Source of the DNA: an uncultured SAR86 cluster bacterium
GTDB lineage: Bacteria > Pseudomonadota > Gammaproteobacteria > Magnimaribacterales > D2472
Length of the DNA stretch: 64,000 bases
Assembly (NCBI GenBank): GCA_902599315.1
Contig: CACKEY010000001.1
Span: forward strand, 485,328 to 549,327
Direction: 5' to 3'
The notes under the pieces: generated by a model
The model's database searches: none
Seen by the model: the letters and a program-made list of their open reading frames with translations, nothing else
Told to the model about the DNA's origin: nothing
Shown: positions 11,110 to 30,801 of the stretch, in pieces
How the letters are laid out: every line of letters starts with the position of its first letter
Numbering within the stretch: position 1 is the stretch's first letter
Program-made: the position numbers and the translations under genes

Positions 11110-12051
11110 TTAATCTGATACTAACCTCGTAGCAGTAGCGGTAGCAGTTTTGGTTCCTGCAACTGAGGTGGTAACATCTTGGACTGTGGTTACATCAACA
11201 GTTGTTTCAGCTTCAATTACGAGCTCAACTTCATAGGGATCACTAGTGACCTGGTTGACAACCTCGTACTCATAAACCTCTTCACCAGCTGCAACTGCAT
11301 CATCTATAACATAGGTTTCAACACCAATATATTCTTCAACGACCGTTGCATCTCGAGTAAACTCAATAATATAAACTGGCTTTCCTCCGACTTGGTGACT
11401 TCCACCATTTAACCTGGCGTCTCCAGAAGATAGCGGTGTGGCACTTGTACCAGGGTTTCTTAAATTGAAATCTGTTCCAGTTGCTGTATAGGTTTCAGTC
11501 CCATCTGCAAACCTTGTCATTACTGCTGTTTGAGTAGCAGTTGTACCAGAGGCATCAACGGCTGCTGTAGCTCTAGTAGCTGTTGCTGTACTAGTAACAT
11601 CTGAATCAGTGGTTGTAAATGCAAGAGATGTTACTGCAGCAATAGTTGATTGCACAGTAGTTTCAGATTGAGTAGTTTGATCTACCATGGTATCGACCAC
11701 AACTTCTGCTTCATAAATTTCAGTAGGTGCAGGAGTCGGTGCAGGAGTCGGTGCAGGAGTCGGTGCAGGAGTCGGTGCAGGAGTCGGTGCTGGTGTTGGT
11801 GCTGGTGTTGGTGCTGGTGTTGGTGCTGGTGTTGGTGCAGGAGATGAATCATCATCATTTGCAGCCGCTATTGCAGCTGCTGCAGCCACTGCTGCGGCAA
11901 TTGCGCCAGCACTCAAAGAGCCGCTAGCGGCTTCTTTAGCTTTCTCAACAGATTCAGCACTAGCTGGTTCATCATCAGCTATTAAGCTTGTTGAAAAAGC
12001 GGGCGTTATCAATGCAAGCAAGTATGCTAGTTTATTTTTGATTTTGGCCAT
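11110..12051 (-). CDS. Secreted Ala/Pro/Thr-rich repeat protein, GfcA/YjbE-like N-terminus
   Basis: A 313-residue exported protein. A signal peptide ends near ADDEP (residue 27). An Ala-rich hydrophobic helix (about 46-65) runs into AAANDDDSS. Ten PAPT repeats (about 71-110) follow, and then a Thr/Val-rich domain (112-313) with many short beta-like TAT, TTV and VYEYEVV stretches. Small-protein partners in Gfc/Yjb loci (GfcA, YjbE) have the same order: signal peptide, a Gly/Ala/Thr-rich hydrophobic stretch, then a short acidic Asn-Asp tail. This gene faces the yjbF/yjbH-like genes, so I infer an enlarged GfcA/YjbE-type component, possibly surface-exposed. A ribosome-binding site (AGGAG, 9 nt spacing) supports the start. 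No enzyme motif is seen. Confidence 0.65.
11726..11845 (-). repeat. 12-bp tandem repeat encoding PAPT
   Basis: Five copies of GGTGCAGGAGTC (plus-strand sequence, 11726-11785) are followed by four copies of GGTGCTGGTGTT (11786-11833) and one degenerate copy (11834-11845). All encode Pro-Ala-Pro-Thr on the minus strand, but the two blocks use different synonymous codons at three of four positions. The sharp switch implies separate expansion of two variant units, and changes in copy number would stay in frame. Confidence 0.95.
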
Positions 12052-25987: not shown

Positions 25988-27010
25988 ATGAGGGTAGGTA
26001 TTGCTGGATATGGCGTTGTTGGAAAAAAAAGATATTCTTCCATCATTAAAAATACCTCATTTAAAGTAACTGATATTTCAGAGGTTAATCCCACTGCTAG
26101 AGATGAGATACCTGATGGAGTAAATGTTTTTAATAATTATCAAGATCTTATTTTAAAGGCTGATTTAGATATTATCTTTATAAGCTTGCCAAATAAATAT
26201 GCCTCAGACGCAGTTTCATTAAGTCTAAAAAAAGGCTTGAATGTTTTTTGTGAAAAACCTCCAGCAAGAACACTTGAAGAGCTGCTGGAGGTTCAAAAAA
26301 TATATAAAAAAAATCCTCATGTAAAATTAATGTATGGATTCAACCATAGATTTCATTTGTCCGTAGAAGAAGCTAAAACAATAATTGATAGTAAAAATTA
26401 TGGAAAGGTTATTAATCTGAAAGGCGTTTATGGGAAGTCACAAATGATAGATTTCAACCAAACCGATTGGAGGACCAAAAGAGAGGAGTCTGGAGGGGGC
26501 ATATTATTAGATCAAGGAATACACATGCTTGACTTGATAAGGTATTTATCTGGAGAAAATTTCTCAAATGTCTTCTCTTTCATTAATAATGCATTCTGGA
26601 ATTTTGATGTCGAAGATAATGCATATGTTTTGATGCAATCTCCAAAAGGAGTAGTGGCGCAATTGCATTCATCGGCCACTCAGTGGAGACATGTATTTAA
26701 TTTAGAAATTACTCTTCAAAAAGGCTCGCTTTTGCTTGGAGGCCTGCTTACAGGCTCAAAAAGTTATGGTGATGAAACATTACGAATCATAACTTCTAAT
26801 CCTGAAAAAGATAAGGGGATGCCAGAAGAGACAACTAAAAAATATAATGAAGATGTATCATGGGATAATGAAATAAAGTATTTTTCAAACTGCTTGGCTA
26901 ACAATTCAGAAATTGAAAGGGGAAGCATTGGGGACGCTGTAGAAACAATGAAGTTGGTTGAAGCTATATATAAAGCAGACCCTGATTGGAAAAAGAAATA
27001 TTATAATTAA
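25988..27010 (+). CDS. Gfo/Idh/MocA family oxidoreductase
   Basis: 340-residue NAD(P)-dependent sugar oxidoreductase. The Rossmann motif is GIAGYGVVGKKR (4-15). The family signature EKP is at 89-91 (NVFCEKPPART). GGGILLDQGIHMLDLIRYL lies near 169-187, where Asp and His match the conserved catalytic DxxxH pattern. It follows the propeller protein by 5 bp and opens a run of sugar-acid genes (isomerase, phosphatase, 2-hydroxyacid dehydrogenase, aldolase, cytidylyltransferase). I infer that it oxidises or reduces a sugar intermediate in that pathway; the substrate is unknown. Confidence 0.86.
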   Translation: MRVGIAGYGVVGKKRYSSIIKNTSFKVTDISEVNPTARDEIPDGVNVFNNYQDLILKADLDIIFISLPNKYASDAVSLSLKKGLNVFCEKPPARTLEELLEVQKIYKKNPHVKLMYGFNHRFHLSVEEAKTIIDSKNYGKVINLKGVYGKSQMIDFNQTDWRTKREESGGGILLDQGIHMLDLIRYLSGENFSNVFSFINNAFWNFDVEDNAYVLMQSPKGVVAQLHSSATQWRHVFNLEITLQKGSLLLGGLLTGSKSYGDETLRIITSNPEKDKGMPEETTKKYNEDVSWDNEIKYFSNCLANNSEIERGSIGDAVETMKLVEAIYKADPDWKKKYYN

Positions 27011-27023
27011 ATTAGGATTCATT

Positions 27024-27602
27024 ATGAGCACATCTTCAGCATATTCAAATAATTACTTAGAGTATCTAACTGATCTTATTTCTCAATTAGATCGAGAGGC
27101 AATAGGCCAATTTGCAGATTTGCTTCTTGAATCTAGAGAGTCTTCAACTACTACATTTTTTCTCGGTAATGGAGGTAGTGCATCTACTGCCACTCATTTT
27201 GTTAACGATGTATCCCTTGGAAGTCGACAATTTGAGAAACCTTTTCGAGCAATCAGTCTTTGCGACAATCAGGCCGTTATAACAGCTATTGCAAATGATG
27301 ATGGATATGAAAATATATTTTTGCAACAGCTTCAAACCTTAGCTAAGCCCGGAGATAATATTGTTTGCATATCTGCATCAGGGAACTCTAAAAATTTAAT
27401 TAAAGCGGTTGAATATGCAAAAGATAATGGAATTTTTGTAGTTGGATTAACTGCTTTTGATGGGGGATATTTAAAAGATAATTGTAATTTAAATATTCAT
27501 GTTCCAACTAAAGTTGGTGAATATGGTCCCGCTGAAGATTTGCACATGGTAGTTTGTGGTTTAGTTGGATCTTATTTTAGAGAAAAATTTTTGAATGCTT
27601 GA
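27024..27602 (+). CDS. SIS-domain sugar isomerase (GmhA-like)
   Basis: 192-residue SIS protein of phosphoheptose isomerase type. The phosphate-binding GNGGSAST lies near 46-53, SASGNSKN near 116-123 and GLTAFDGG near 140-147. The EDLHM segment near the C-terminus carries the catalytic His of the GmhA family. The position of the GmhA catalytic Glu (FAEEL in E. coli) reads FVNDV, so Asp replaces Glu and the substrate may not be sedoheptulose-7-phosphate. I use the ATG at 27024, preceded by AGGA, because it gives the normal family length; a longer in-frame start overlaps the previous gene. It overlaps the phosphatase gene by 8 bp. Confidence 0.85.
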   Translation: MSTSSAYSNNYLEYLTDLISQLDREAIGQFADLLLESRESSTTTFFLGNGGSASTATHFVNDVSLGSRQFEKPFRAISLCDNQAVITAIANDDGYENIFLQQLQTLAKPGDNIVCISASGNSKNLIKAVEYAKDNGIFVVGLTAFDGGYLKDNCNLNIHVPTKVGEYGPAEDLHMVVCGLVGSYFREKFLNA

Positions 27603-28335
27603 TTTAAATCAATGCCTCAATACTGCAAAGTCTGCAGCTTTATTAGCTGGAAAGTACTTAGTAAATGCAAAAGGGCAAAGCTTGGAAGTATTATCAAATA
27701 CCGGCAGAGATCTTAAGCTTCAACTAGATATTGACACAGAAAAACTTATTAAAGACCATATAACTTCTGACAGCTCATATCCAATTTTAGGAGAGGAAAC
27801 AGGTTCAAGTGGAGATCTTGACAACACATATTGGGTTGTAGATCCTCTAGATGGAACTTCAAATTTTTTAAGGGGTATACCTATAAGCTGTGTTTCAATT
27901 GCCTTAATGCAAGAGATGAAACCCATGCTTGGAGTAATATACGATTTTAACCATGATGAAATATATTGGGGCCATAAGGAATCTAAAGCTTATATTGACG
28001 ACAAAGTAATAAGCGTCTCATCTCTTTCACAAAAAAGCGAGTCTACACTTGTGACTGGAATTCCAGCCAAAACAAATTATTCTGATAGCGAGTTTAGTGA
28101 AATGATATCTTATTTCCAGGCATGGAAAAAAATCAGAATGATCGGGTCTGCAGCTATGGCTGCATGCTATGTTGCTTCAGGAAAAGCTGAGACTTACAAA
28201 GAAGATGGAATTTTTCTTTGGGACATTGCAGCTGGCGCTGCTATTGTAAATGCTGCAGGAGGCCTTGCATCTATTACTAATATTCAAACTGATTATCGTG
28301 TAAATGCAAAATTTACCAATAATATAATAGAGTAA
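27595..28335 (+). CDS. Inositol-monophosphatase-family sugar phosphatase
   Basis: 246-residue Mg-dependent phosphatase of the IMPase/CysQ superfamily. Metal ligands are all visible: GEET (Glu67-Glu68 or so), WVVDPLDGTSNF (Asp83, Asp86) and LWDIAAGAAIV (Asp near 210). The superfamily hydrolyses inositol phosphates, PAP or sugar phosphates. Its position between a SIS isomerase and a pyruvate aldolase suggests it removes the phosphate from a sugar intermediate, taking the place KdsC or GmhB has in Kdo or heptose synthesis. That is inference from context. Confidence 0.86.
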   Translation: MLDLNQCLNTAKSAALLAGKYLVNAKGQSLEVLSNTGRDLKLQLDIDTEKLIKDHITSDSSYPILGEETGSSGDLDNTYWVVDPLDGTSNFLRGIPISCVSIALMQEMKPMLGVIYDFNHDEIYWGHKESKAYIDDKVISVSSLSQKSESTLVTGIPAKTNYSDSEFSEMISYFQAWKKIRMIGSAAMAACYVASGKAETYKEDGIFLWDIAAGAAIVNAAGGLASITNIQTDYRVNAKFTNNIIE

Positions 28336-28339
28336 TAAT

Positions 28340-29305
28340 TTGAATACGATAGATACAGTTGCAGTTGCATCAAGATCCTTTTCAAAAAATGATGACTTGG
28401 TAAAAAATCTGCAAAGCAAGTACTCATCAGTCATATTAAATAATTTTGGTAAAACTCTTCAAGGAGATGAGTTGGTTAATTTTTTGATGCCTGCAACAAA
28501 AGCAATAATAGGTATTGAAGAATTAACTGAGCCAGTTCTCGCTAAACTTACCAAACTAAAAGTTATCAGCAAATATGGCGTTGGTTTGAATAATCTTGAT
28601 TTAAAGCTTCTTAAAAAAAGAAATATTAGATTAGGATTTACTCCAGGTGTAAATAAACAGAGTGTTGCAGAATTGACGCTTACGCTAATACTAATTGGTC
28701 TTAAAAAAATTCAGGATAATAACATAGACATAATGAATGGTAACTGGTCACAGGAAAAAGGGTCAGAGCTTTATGGAAAAAATATTGGATTGCTTGGATT
28801 TGGAAATATTGGCCAAAAACTAGTATCGCTTTTGCAACCTTTTAACTGCAAGATCTCATTTTTTGATGAAAAAAAATTTTCTAAGGAGGATTTATCAAAT
28901 ATTTCATCAAACTTAAATTTTGAACCTAATTTGATAAAGCAAATGTCTTTAAAGCAGGTATTAAAAGAATCAGATATATTAAGTATTCATCTTCCCTTGA
29001 CTGCATCTACTGAGAATATAATCTCGTTAGATGAACTTAACGAATTGAGATCAAATGTTTGCATTATTAATACTGCAAGAGGCGGGATTGTAAATGAGAA
29101 GGATCTTTATATTTTTCTATCTGAAAATCCCTTTAGTTACGCAGGATTTGATGTTTACAAGGAAGAGCCTGCGATAAATAATTCATTGTTTAAATTAAGA
29201 AACTTTTTTGGGACCTCGCATCGGTCCAGCCTTACAAATGAAGGTATTCTTTCAATGGGTATGGCTGCTATAAATGGATTAGATGATAATATTAATATCA
29301 CCTAA
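28340..29305 (+). CDS. D-isomer-specific 2-hydroxyacid dehydrogenase
   Basis: 321-residue phosphoglycerate-dehydrogenase-like enzyme. The catalytic-domain segment KVISKYGVGLNNLD lies near 74-87. The NAD motif GLLGFGNIGQKL is near 150-161, NTARGGIVNE (catalytic Arg) near 245-254, DVYKEEP near 272, and the catalytic His in GTSHRSS near 293. The best start is a TTG, four bases after the phosphatase stop; no ATG lies near the expected N-terminus. It could oxidise or reduce a sugar-acid or feed pyruvate-like precursors to the aldolase that follows. Substrate unknown. Confidence 0.85.
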   Translation: MNTIDTVAVASRSFSKNDDLVKNLQSKYSSVILNNFGKTLQGDELVNFLMPATKAIIGIEELTEPVLAKLTKLKVISKYGVGLNNLDLKLLKKRNIRLGFTPGVNKQSVAELTLTLILIGLKKIQDNNIDIMNGNWSQEKGSELYGKNIGLLGFGNIGQKLVSLLQPFNCKISFFDEKKFSKEDLSNISSNLNFEPNLIKQMSLKQVLKESDILSIHLPLTASTENIISLDELNELRSNVCIINTARGGIVNEKDLYIFLSENPFSYAGFDVYKEEPAINNSLFKLRNFFGTSHRSSLTNEGILSMGMAAINGLDDNINIT

Positions 29306-29317
29306 CAGACTAACTTT

Positions 29318-30046
29318 ATGAGTAAACTTTCGATCGGTACATGGTTAAGCTTGCCTAATGAATCTATAGCTGAAATTTTTGCTAATGCTGGGTATGAATG
29401 GATTGTAATTGATCTTGAGCATAGCACCATTGGTATTAATCAAGCTGAACAATTAATTAGAGTTATAGATTTAGCAGGGTCAAAGCCATTTGTTAGATTG
29501 TCTTCGCATGATCCTTCACAGATAAAAAGGGTTTTAGATGCTGGAGCTAAAGGTATTTTAGCTCCAATGGTAGAAACTGTTCATCAAACAGAGAGCATAA
29601 TTTCAGCATGCCAATATCCACCTGATGGAATTAGAGGTATGGGACTGGCTAGAGCTCAAGGATATGGGGAAAATTCTGCAAAAAAAAAATATATCAATCA
29701 AAAAGTAAATGAGATTGAGATATATGTTCAAATTGAATCTAAAAAGGGCTTAAAAAATTGTAAAGAAATTTTTTCTAACAATATAAATGGTTATTTTATT
29801 GGTCCATATGATCTTTCAGCGTCTTTAAATAATCCAGGAAAATTTGATACCGATGAATTTTATAATGCTGAAAAAATTATATTATCTGCAGCAAAAGAGG
29901 AGGGCATTAAATGTGGGTACCATCTTGTTGAACCAGACAAAGACAAAATAAATGAACTAAATGATAAAGGGTATAATATGATTGCTTTTAGTGTTGATAT
30001 TAGAATGTTAGATGTCACTGCAAGACTTCCTTTTAACTTAAAATGA
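29318..30046 (+). CDS. HpcH/HpaI family aldolase
   Basis: 242-residue class II pyruvate aldolase. Family blocks: GTWLSLPN, WIVIDLEHSTIG (His about 38), RLSSHDPSQIKRVLDAGAKGILAPMV (about 62-87), YPPDGIRGMGLARAQGYG (about 101-118), QIESKKGL (Glu near 138, metal) and GYFIGPYDLSASL (Asp near 164, metal). These enzymes split or form 2-keto-3-deoxy acids from pyruvate and an aldehyde. Its stop overlaps the ATG of a KdsB-like cytidylyltransferase (ATGA), so the likely job is making a 3-deoxy-2-ulosonic acid that is then CMP-activated, rather than catabolism. This inference rests on translational coupling. Confidence 0.88.
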   Translation: MSKLSIGTWLSLPNESIAEIFANAGYEWIVIDLEHSTIGINQAEQLIRVIDLAGSKPFVRLSSHDPSQIKRVLDAGAKGILAPMVETVHQTESIISACQYPPDGIRGMGLARAQGYGENSAKKKYINQKVNEIEIYVQIESKKGLKNCKEIFSNNINGYFIGPYDLSASLNNPGKFDTDEFYNAEKIILSAAKEEGIKCGYHLVEPDKDKINELNDKGYNMIAFSVDIRMLDVTARLPFNLK

Positions 30047-30801
30047 AAAATACTTTAGGAGTTATTCCTGCAAGAATGGCCTCATCTCGATTTCCAGGAA
30101 AACCGCTTAAAAAGATCCTTAATATTCCAATGTTAGCTCACTGTTATGAAAGAGCGCTTTTATCAGGAGTCTGCGATAATTTAGTGATTGCAACACCAGA
30201 TCAAGAAATCATAGATTGGGCTACTCAATTTGAAATACCTTCGGTATTAACGAGTCATTCTCATAAGAGAGCTACTGAACGGGCAAAAGAGACATTAGAT
30301 ATTCTTACAAATGATGGTCTGCATTATGATTTAGTGCTTTTGTTGCAAGGAGATGAGCCTCAAATTTTTCCTCAAGATATTGGCAATCTTAAACAAGCAT
30401 TTTCTAATAAAGAACTTGAAGTAGTAAATTTAGTTTTTCCAATCTCAGATGATGACTTAGAGGATCCTAATGTAGTAAAAGTAGCTCTTGATCTAAATCT
30501 AACTATTCATTTTTTCTCAAGATCGCATATTCCACATGACTGCATAAGTGGATATAGACAGCTAGGCATGATAGGCCTGACAAAAAAAGCTCTTAATGAT
30601 TATGCCAGTCTTTTACCAACGGTTCTTGAAGAGGTTGAATCTATTGATATGATGAGATTTATTGAAAATGATTTTTCTATTCAAGGAGTTTTATCTAATT
30701 CACAAATCCTTGGTGTTGACACCCCGCAAGATTTAAAAAAGGTAGAAAAAATAATGATGAATGATAAATTTGTAAATTTATACAAAGAAAAATATATCTA
30801 G
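30043..30801 (+). CDS. KdsB-like CMP-ulosonic acid synthetase (cytidylyltransferase)
   Basis: 252-residue nucleotidyltransferase of the CMP-Kdo synthetase family. The N-terminal GVIPARMASSRFPGKPL (6-22) is the CTP-binding signature. LLLQGDEPQI (about 102-111) supplies the metal-binding Asp, and LGVDTPQDLKKVE lies near the C-terminus. Around residue 80, KdsB's SGTDR segment reads KRATERAKE, so sugar recognition may differ from Kdo. It is coupled to an HpcH/HpaI aldolase instead of kdsA/kdsC, which argues for a different ulosonic acid. A plain kdsB role for LPS Kdo remains possible if no other kdsB exists in the genome. Confidence 0.85.
   Translation: MKNTLGVIPARMASSRFPGKPLKKILNIPMLAHCYERALLSGVCDNLVIATPDQEIIDWATQFEIPSVLTSHSHKRATERAKETLDILTNDGLHYDLVLLLQGDEPQIFPQDIGNLKQAFSNKELEVVNLVFPISDDDLEDPNVVKVALDLNLTIHFFSRSHIPHDCISGYRQLGMIGLTKKALNDYASLLPTVLEEVESIDMMRFIENDFSIQGVLSNSQILGVDTPQDLKKVEKIMMNDKFVNLYKEKYI

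Follow-up and report, generated by a model that had tools for sequence, protein, structure and literature searches.

A candidate ulosonic acid cassette in a SAR86 genome

The 64,000-nucleotide stretch analysed here (hereafter the window) originates from an uncultured SAR86 cluster bacterium (contig CACKEY010000001.1, positions 485,328 to 549,327) and harbours, at 25988-30801, six linked open reading frames, all on the + strand, exactly where a preliminary description of this DNA had placed them. We consider it probable, at roughly 0.62, that these genes represent an optional cassette which makes an ulosonic acid other than 3-deoxy-D-manno-oct-2-ulosonic acid (Kdo) and activates it with cytidine monophosphate (CMP) for a surface glycan; the acid itself is probably made by the aldolase of the cassette. 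This reading is based on the gene families, on catalytic residues that are intact in both the aldolase and the cytidylyltransferase, on the altered sugar site of the latter, on the co-occurrence of both with a hydroxyacid dehydrogenase and on other bacteria combining genes for these roles in different orders. The character of many bacterial surfaces is set by ulosonic acids that are activated with CMP (Kdo and the sialic, pseudaminic and legionaminic acids), and the cassette is a candidate for an uncharacterised route in the largely uncultured marine SAR86 group, being present in some close relatives and absent from others, as is often the case with surface-glycan genes.

The six genes code for a Gfo/Idh/MocA oxidoreductase (GFO, 25988-27010), a sugar-phosphate isomerase that resembles GmhA and belongs to a separate subfamily (SIS, 27024-27602, the best start being the ATG at 27024), an inositol-monophosphatase family phosphatase (IMP, 27595-28335), a SerA/GhrB-like D-2-hydroxyacid dehydrogenase with a TTG start (HDH, 28340-29305), an HpcH/HpaI class II 2-oxoacid aldolase (ALD, PF03328, 29318-30046) and a cytidylyltransferase of the KdsB fold (30043-30801). 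The families named beforehand were confirmed for each of them by Pfam scores exceeding the cut-offs. The previously noted ATGA overlap of the aldolase and cytidylyltransferase genes is real, and the SIS and IMP genes overlap too (27595 versus 27602). No NCBIfam equivalog model scored above its cut-off for any of the six proteins. The block extends beyond the six genes, as a gene for a glucose/sorbosone dehydrogenase-like protein (PF07995; 24873-25982, + strand) directly abuts its upstream side.

The cytidylyltransferase differs from canonical KdsB

Judged by its sequence, the cytidylyltransferase of the cassette (CYTIDYLYLTRANSFERASE) is not a normal KdsB. It keeps R10, R15, K19, Q98, D100, R157 and D235 (E. 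coli numbering), the roles of the CTP- and Mg-residues in KdsB being those described earlier (PMC3149649). Of the NCBIfam models, the protein passes NF003952 alone, which covers the KdsB subfamily; it fails the kdsB equivalog TIGR00466 (139.6 vs 155.2 bits). Where E. coli KdsB has H181, Y185, E210 and Q211, residues that we take to be in contact with Kdo in KdsB structures, the window protein has Q, I, D and M, its motif being RQLGMI ... ESIDMMR as against RHLGIY ... EQLR. Hence the difference in the sugar-recognition segment pointed out in the preliminary description holds: four sugar-site residues are altered, while those for CTP and Mg are kept. The same four residues are retained by E. coli KdsB, KpsU and the genome's own KdsB, and are altered in nearly the whole clade to which the cassette enzyme belongs, with two sequences (L134 and L057) departing in part from the sugar-site pattern of that clade.

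The clade was delineated in a tree of 49 sequences, including E. coli KdsB, KpsU and the genome's own KdsB. It comprises 27 of the 28 HDH-linked proteins and three further ones located at contig ends or in fragments (support 97/96), and all three of the above-mentioned Kdo-type enzymes fall outside it. A grouping of the cassette enzyme with canonical Kdo enzymes, named beforehand as an outcome that would refute the reading, is thus not what the tree shows. The sole HDH-linked sequence outside the clade (L066) lacks the motif as well. An HDH gene was found within 6 kb of 27 of the 30 clade members versus 0 of 13 KdsBs of the EQLR type, the Fisher value for this linkage being one that ignores relatedness. 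The AlphaFold model of the cytidylyltransferase (predicted local distance difference test score of 92) has KdsB structures as its best matches, including the CMP-Kdo complex 1gqc (template modelling (TM) scores of 0.89-0.92). Close copies of the protein on plasmids or phages were not found, all matches there being at most ~36% identical; the search of plasmids did, however, bring up the Leisingera and Acuticoccus clusters described below. KdsB-like proteins of the ESIDMMR rather than EQLR type encoded next to HDH are annotated as Kdo enzymes, which they probably are not; the combination of ESIDMMR and HDH provides genome annotators with a signature telling both groups apart, and opens the claim to tests with purified enzymes.

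Relation to the Kdo and nonulosonic acid pathways

The source genome (1.44 Mb, ~90% complete) contains a canonical kdsB elsewhere, flanked by lpxK and murB, as well as kdsA (in the order pyrG-kdsA-eno) and kdsD (next to lptA-lptB). The KdsB-like enzyme of the cassette is thus an additional one, and the possibility considered at the outset, namely that it is the only kdsB of this genome, does not apply. Neither a second kdsA in the genome nor a PEP (phosphoenolpyruvate)-dependent KdsA in the cassette was detected. These results bear on the idea of a second Kdo pathway of the capsule type, with a KpsU-like cytidylyltransferase and the remaining genes as mere neighbours. Such a pathway would be in agreement with the KdsB fold, the CTP site and the subfamily model that is passed, but the separate clade, the alteration of the EQLR and H/Y positions in nearly all of its members and the want of a second kdsA make it highly unlikely, and it was rejected on these grounds.

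As in the Kdo pathway (KdsD-KdsA-KdsC-KdsB), the cassette combines an isomerase, a carbon-adding enzyme, a phosphatase and a CMP transferase of the KdsB fold with the same CTP/Mg residues. Unlike that pathway, it has a class II aldolase in place of PEP-dependent KdsA, a GmhA-like protein in place of KdsD, two extra dehydrogenases and a changed sugar site, and the Kdo genes proper lie elsewhere in the genome. The scheme parallel to the Kdo route, which had been proposed for these genes, is supported in part: nothing in that route corresponds to HDH, the gene that accompanies this clade of cytidylyltransferases most steadily. The nonulosonic acid pathways (NeuB/NeuA; pseudaminic and legionaminic acids) also end in a CMP-activated ulosonic acid, and in some equivalents of the cassette the cytidylyltransferase is of the NeuA-like kind. 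However, the cassette is devoid of a NeuB-type synthase (none among the six proteins), an aminotransferase and an N-acetyltransferase, and the SAR86 enzyme is of the KdsB fold.

Two observations concern the other ulosonic acid genes of this genome. The kdsD gene (L167, genome C7) directly precedes lptA and lptB in an operon without kdsC, and the gene for Kdo8P phosphatase was not located. NeuB-like and NeuA-like genes are present upstream of the window (L003, genome C1:466454-470092), which brings to three the kinds of CMP-ulosonic acid for which this 1.44 Mb genome carries genes.

Proposed route and the enzymes involved

In the proposed route, SIS or another isomerase would provide an aldose phosphate, from which the resident IMPase would remove the phosphate. 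The sugar precursor, or else the 2-oxo-acid donor, would be oxidised or reduced by GFO and HDH in NAD(P)-linked reactions. A small 2-oxo acid (pyruvate or hydroxypyruvate) would then be added by the class II aldolase to the aldehyde so formed, and the product would be linked to CMP by the KdsB-like enzyme.

ALD is the sole PF03328 protein of the genome and keeps H35 and R60 (catalytic) as well as E140 and D165 (metal-binding), residue roles being known from class II aldolases of this family (PMC7610986). With the class II pyruvate aldolases HpcH/HpaI, GarL and RhmA it shares the family and these four conserved residues (His, Arg, Glu, Asp), although its genetic context is that of CMP-sugar activation and not of catabolism. 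It scores below the NCBIfam equivalog cut-offs and in a tree stands apart from four catabolic reference aldolases (95/87; a small set). Since class II PF03328 aldolases take hydroxypyruvate as well as pyruvate (PMC7610986), the earlier designation of ALD as a pyruvate aldolase with a 3-deoxy product stands as regards the aldolase family, whereas "pyruvate" and "3-deoxy" are assumptions.

The closest relatives of HDH are phosphoglycerate, glycerate and hydroxypyruvate dehydrogenases, and a probable 2-ketogluconate reductase is among its relatives in the PDB. The enzyme may serve to supply the donor, to convert an aldonate into the 2-keto acid by oxidation or to adjust the acceptor. One sub-version of the favoured reading, on balance doubtful, is that HDH makes hydroxypyruvate and ALD adds it to an aldose, the resulting non-deoxy 3-hydroxy-2-ulosonic acid being activated with CMP. 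The dehydrogenase relatives just mentioned, the known use of hydroxypyruvate by class II aldolases and the hydroxyketoacid aldolases (6r62 and kin) found among the PDB relatives of ALD all point in this direction, and HDH and ALD staying together in SAR86 would be accounted for. Nevertheless, it leaves pairs of HDH and cytidylyltransferase genes without an aldolase unexplained, and the donor is not readable from the sequence.

It might also be argued that catabolic or housekeeping genes were assembled here by chance, ALD degrading a sugar acid and HDH being the SerA of the genome. The families are indeed widespread in catabolism, and the nearest NCBIfam models of the cassette proteins include HpaI, GarL and PGDH. 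Against this stand the exact co-occurrence of the genes in the family, their repeated reassembly in other gene orders, the separate grouping of the reference aldolases and the presence in the genome of longer paralogues of HDH (~380-400 amino acids; SerA/PdxB-like by length), in view of which the identity of HDH with housekeeping SerA was rejected. Such an explanation is hardly credible.

SIS carries Asp at the position of the catalytic Glu of GmhA, as observed before, and this is a general feature: the residues found there are ND, QD or CD in every SIS protein of the cassettes and AEL in GmhA-type proteins encoded at other loci. The protein shares with GmhA (sedoheptulose-7-phosphate isomerase) the SIS fold, the NGGSAS motif and a conserved C-terminal His; it differs in the replaced Glu and in the C-terminal motif GEYGPxED.H, and scores far under the gmhA equivalog cut-off (102.6 vs 209.5 bits). 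The suggestion that KdsC has been replaced by the IMPase, on the other hand, is unsupported, as the IMPase stays at the locus in seven of seven cassette-less congeners checked. In unrelated clusters (L132; Leisingera aquaemixtae) an IMPase also accompanies SIS and HDH, so that it may have a role in the pathway after all.

Conservation in SAR86 and the empty site

In a survey of 203 genomes of the same order, this type of cytidylyltransferase and ALD occur in the identical 22 genomes of the family to which the window belongs. Within the genus, HDH orthologues (at least 61%), ALD and the cytidylyltransferase mark the same 12 of 26 genomes. Gene order is conserved in SAR86 (sorbosone dehydrogenase-GFO-SIS-IMP-HDH-ALD-cytidylyltransferase, 43-99% identity), so that the refuting condition of a gene order that is not conserved, set in the preliminary description, does not apply, and from gene content HDH, ALD and the cytidylyltransferase are the fixed core in the family.

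In the seven cassette-less congeners (L171-L177), the same site reads sorbosone dehydrogenase-IMPase-photolyase, which identifies both the sorbosone dehydrogenase-like gene and the IMPase gene as residents of the locus; the former adjoins the cassette in SAR86 and is found without it too. The variable genes flank the IMPase, with GFO and SIS on one side and HDH, ALD and the cytidylyltransferase on the other; they may have been either gained or lost.

An ELM1-family GT-B-like gene follows the cytidylyltransferase in 12 of 20 related SAR86 cassettes (for instance at 10005-11009 of L042, between the cytidylyltransferase and the photolyase) and may encode the transferase. The model of the protein has a general GT-B resemblance only (TM ~0.5), and no sequence match was found in the PDB. 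The gene is absent from the window locus, its nearest homologue in the genome being located elsewhere and 33% identical.

The same roles in other bacteria

The roles of the cassette recur in other orders in unrelated bacteria: one locus (L131) has cytidylyltransferase-GFO-SIS-HDH with ALD opposite them, and another (L132) has ALD with IMP-HDH-SIS-GFO-cytidylyltransferase. On marine plasmids, the arrangement is Gfo-SIS-IMPase-NeuA-like-HDH in Leisingera aquaemixtae and ALD-NeuA-like-HDH-HAD-SDR in Acuticoccus. A second type of gene set combines HDH, ALD and the cytidylyltransferase with an SDR, a HAD phosphatase and a Pgl/NagB-like protein instead of GFO, IMPase and SIS; it was found in other families of the SAR86 order and in a genome of the same class that is only distantly related (L128). 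Judging from the families, the proteins of this type may fill the roles of those they stand in for. A plasmid of Leisingera caerulea (L154, 6386-8741) carries an HMGL-like (DRE-TIM) aldolase gene directly upstream of a KdsB-like gene, whose product has an intermediate sugar-site motif.

Several points weigh against the favoured reading. Its substrates and product are predicted only, and HDH would be superfluous in a simple aldol route. SIS is missing from several SAR86 cassettes and GFO from two (L046, L051), and the IMPase is not cassette-specific. Moreover, two genomes, G190 (95% complete) and G238 (99%), have HDH and a cytidylyltransferase of the clade and no HpcH/HpaI aldolase; the aldolase is thus not universal, and at least in these genomes an oxidative variant or a different aldolase is favoured.

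The oxidative variant would proceed without a new C-C bond: GFO or an SDR would yield a lactone, a Pgl-like lactonase would open it, a phosphatase would free the aldonate, HDH would oxidise its C2 to give the 2-keto acid and the cytidylyltransferase would activate the product, leaving the aldolase as an extra step or a sub-branch. It is consistent with HDH and the cytidylyltransferase being the steadiest core, with the Pgl-HDH-HAD-cytidylyltransferase-SDR cluster of G190, with three loci (L094-L096) where the cytidylyltransferase and HDH genes have no aldolase gene alongside, and with the probable 2-ketogluconate reductase among the HDH relatives. In the SAR86 family, however, ALD never parts from HDH and the cytidylyltransferase, with whose gene it shares the ATGA overlap, and the cassette of the window has no lactonase. 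On the whole we regard this route as unlikely. It should be kept in mind that the confidences given to the rivals overlap with that of the aldolase-based reading, the hydroxypyruvate route being one version of it.

On a broader scale, the reshuffled clusters allow the tentative proposal, which may well prove wrong, of a modular CMP-sugar-acid pathway crossing phyla, with HDH and the cytidylyltransferase as the defining pair, all other roles (isomerase or lactonase, phosphatase, sugar dehydrogenase, enzyme forming the carbon bond) and even the type of cytidylyltransferase being interchangeable among families, and the product belonging to an ulosonic acid class not yet tied to genes. No account of this gene set was found in the open-access literature searched, absence there being no proof. 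From sequence comparison, the combination, the cytidylyltransferase clade and the dehydrogenase partner appear to be new; the individual families are known, as is the kind of end point, a CMP-ulosonic acid.

Other observations

In G238, the cytidylyltransferase gene lies in a cytidylyltransferase-GFO-SIS-SDR-AroB-like cyclase (TIGR04425)-HDH-TIGR04326-like cluster (L134). Surface carbohydrate proteins of the TIGR04326 type (~640 amino acids), which may be transferases, adjoin several cytidylyltransferases of the clade (L061, L063, L127 and L134; L061 and L127 by inspection of the sequence only). Elsewhere in the window, the reverse strand at 11110-12051 encodes a protein with a long PTPAP low-complexity stretch.

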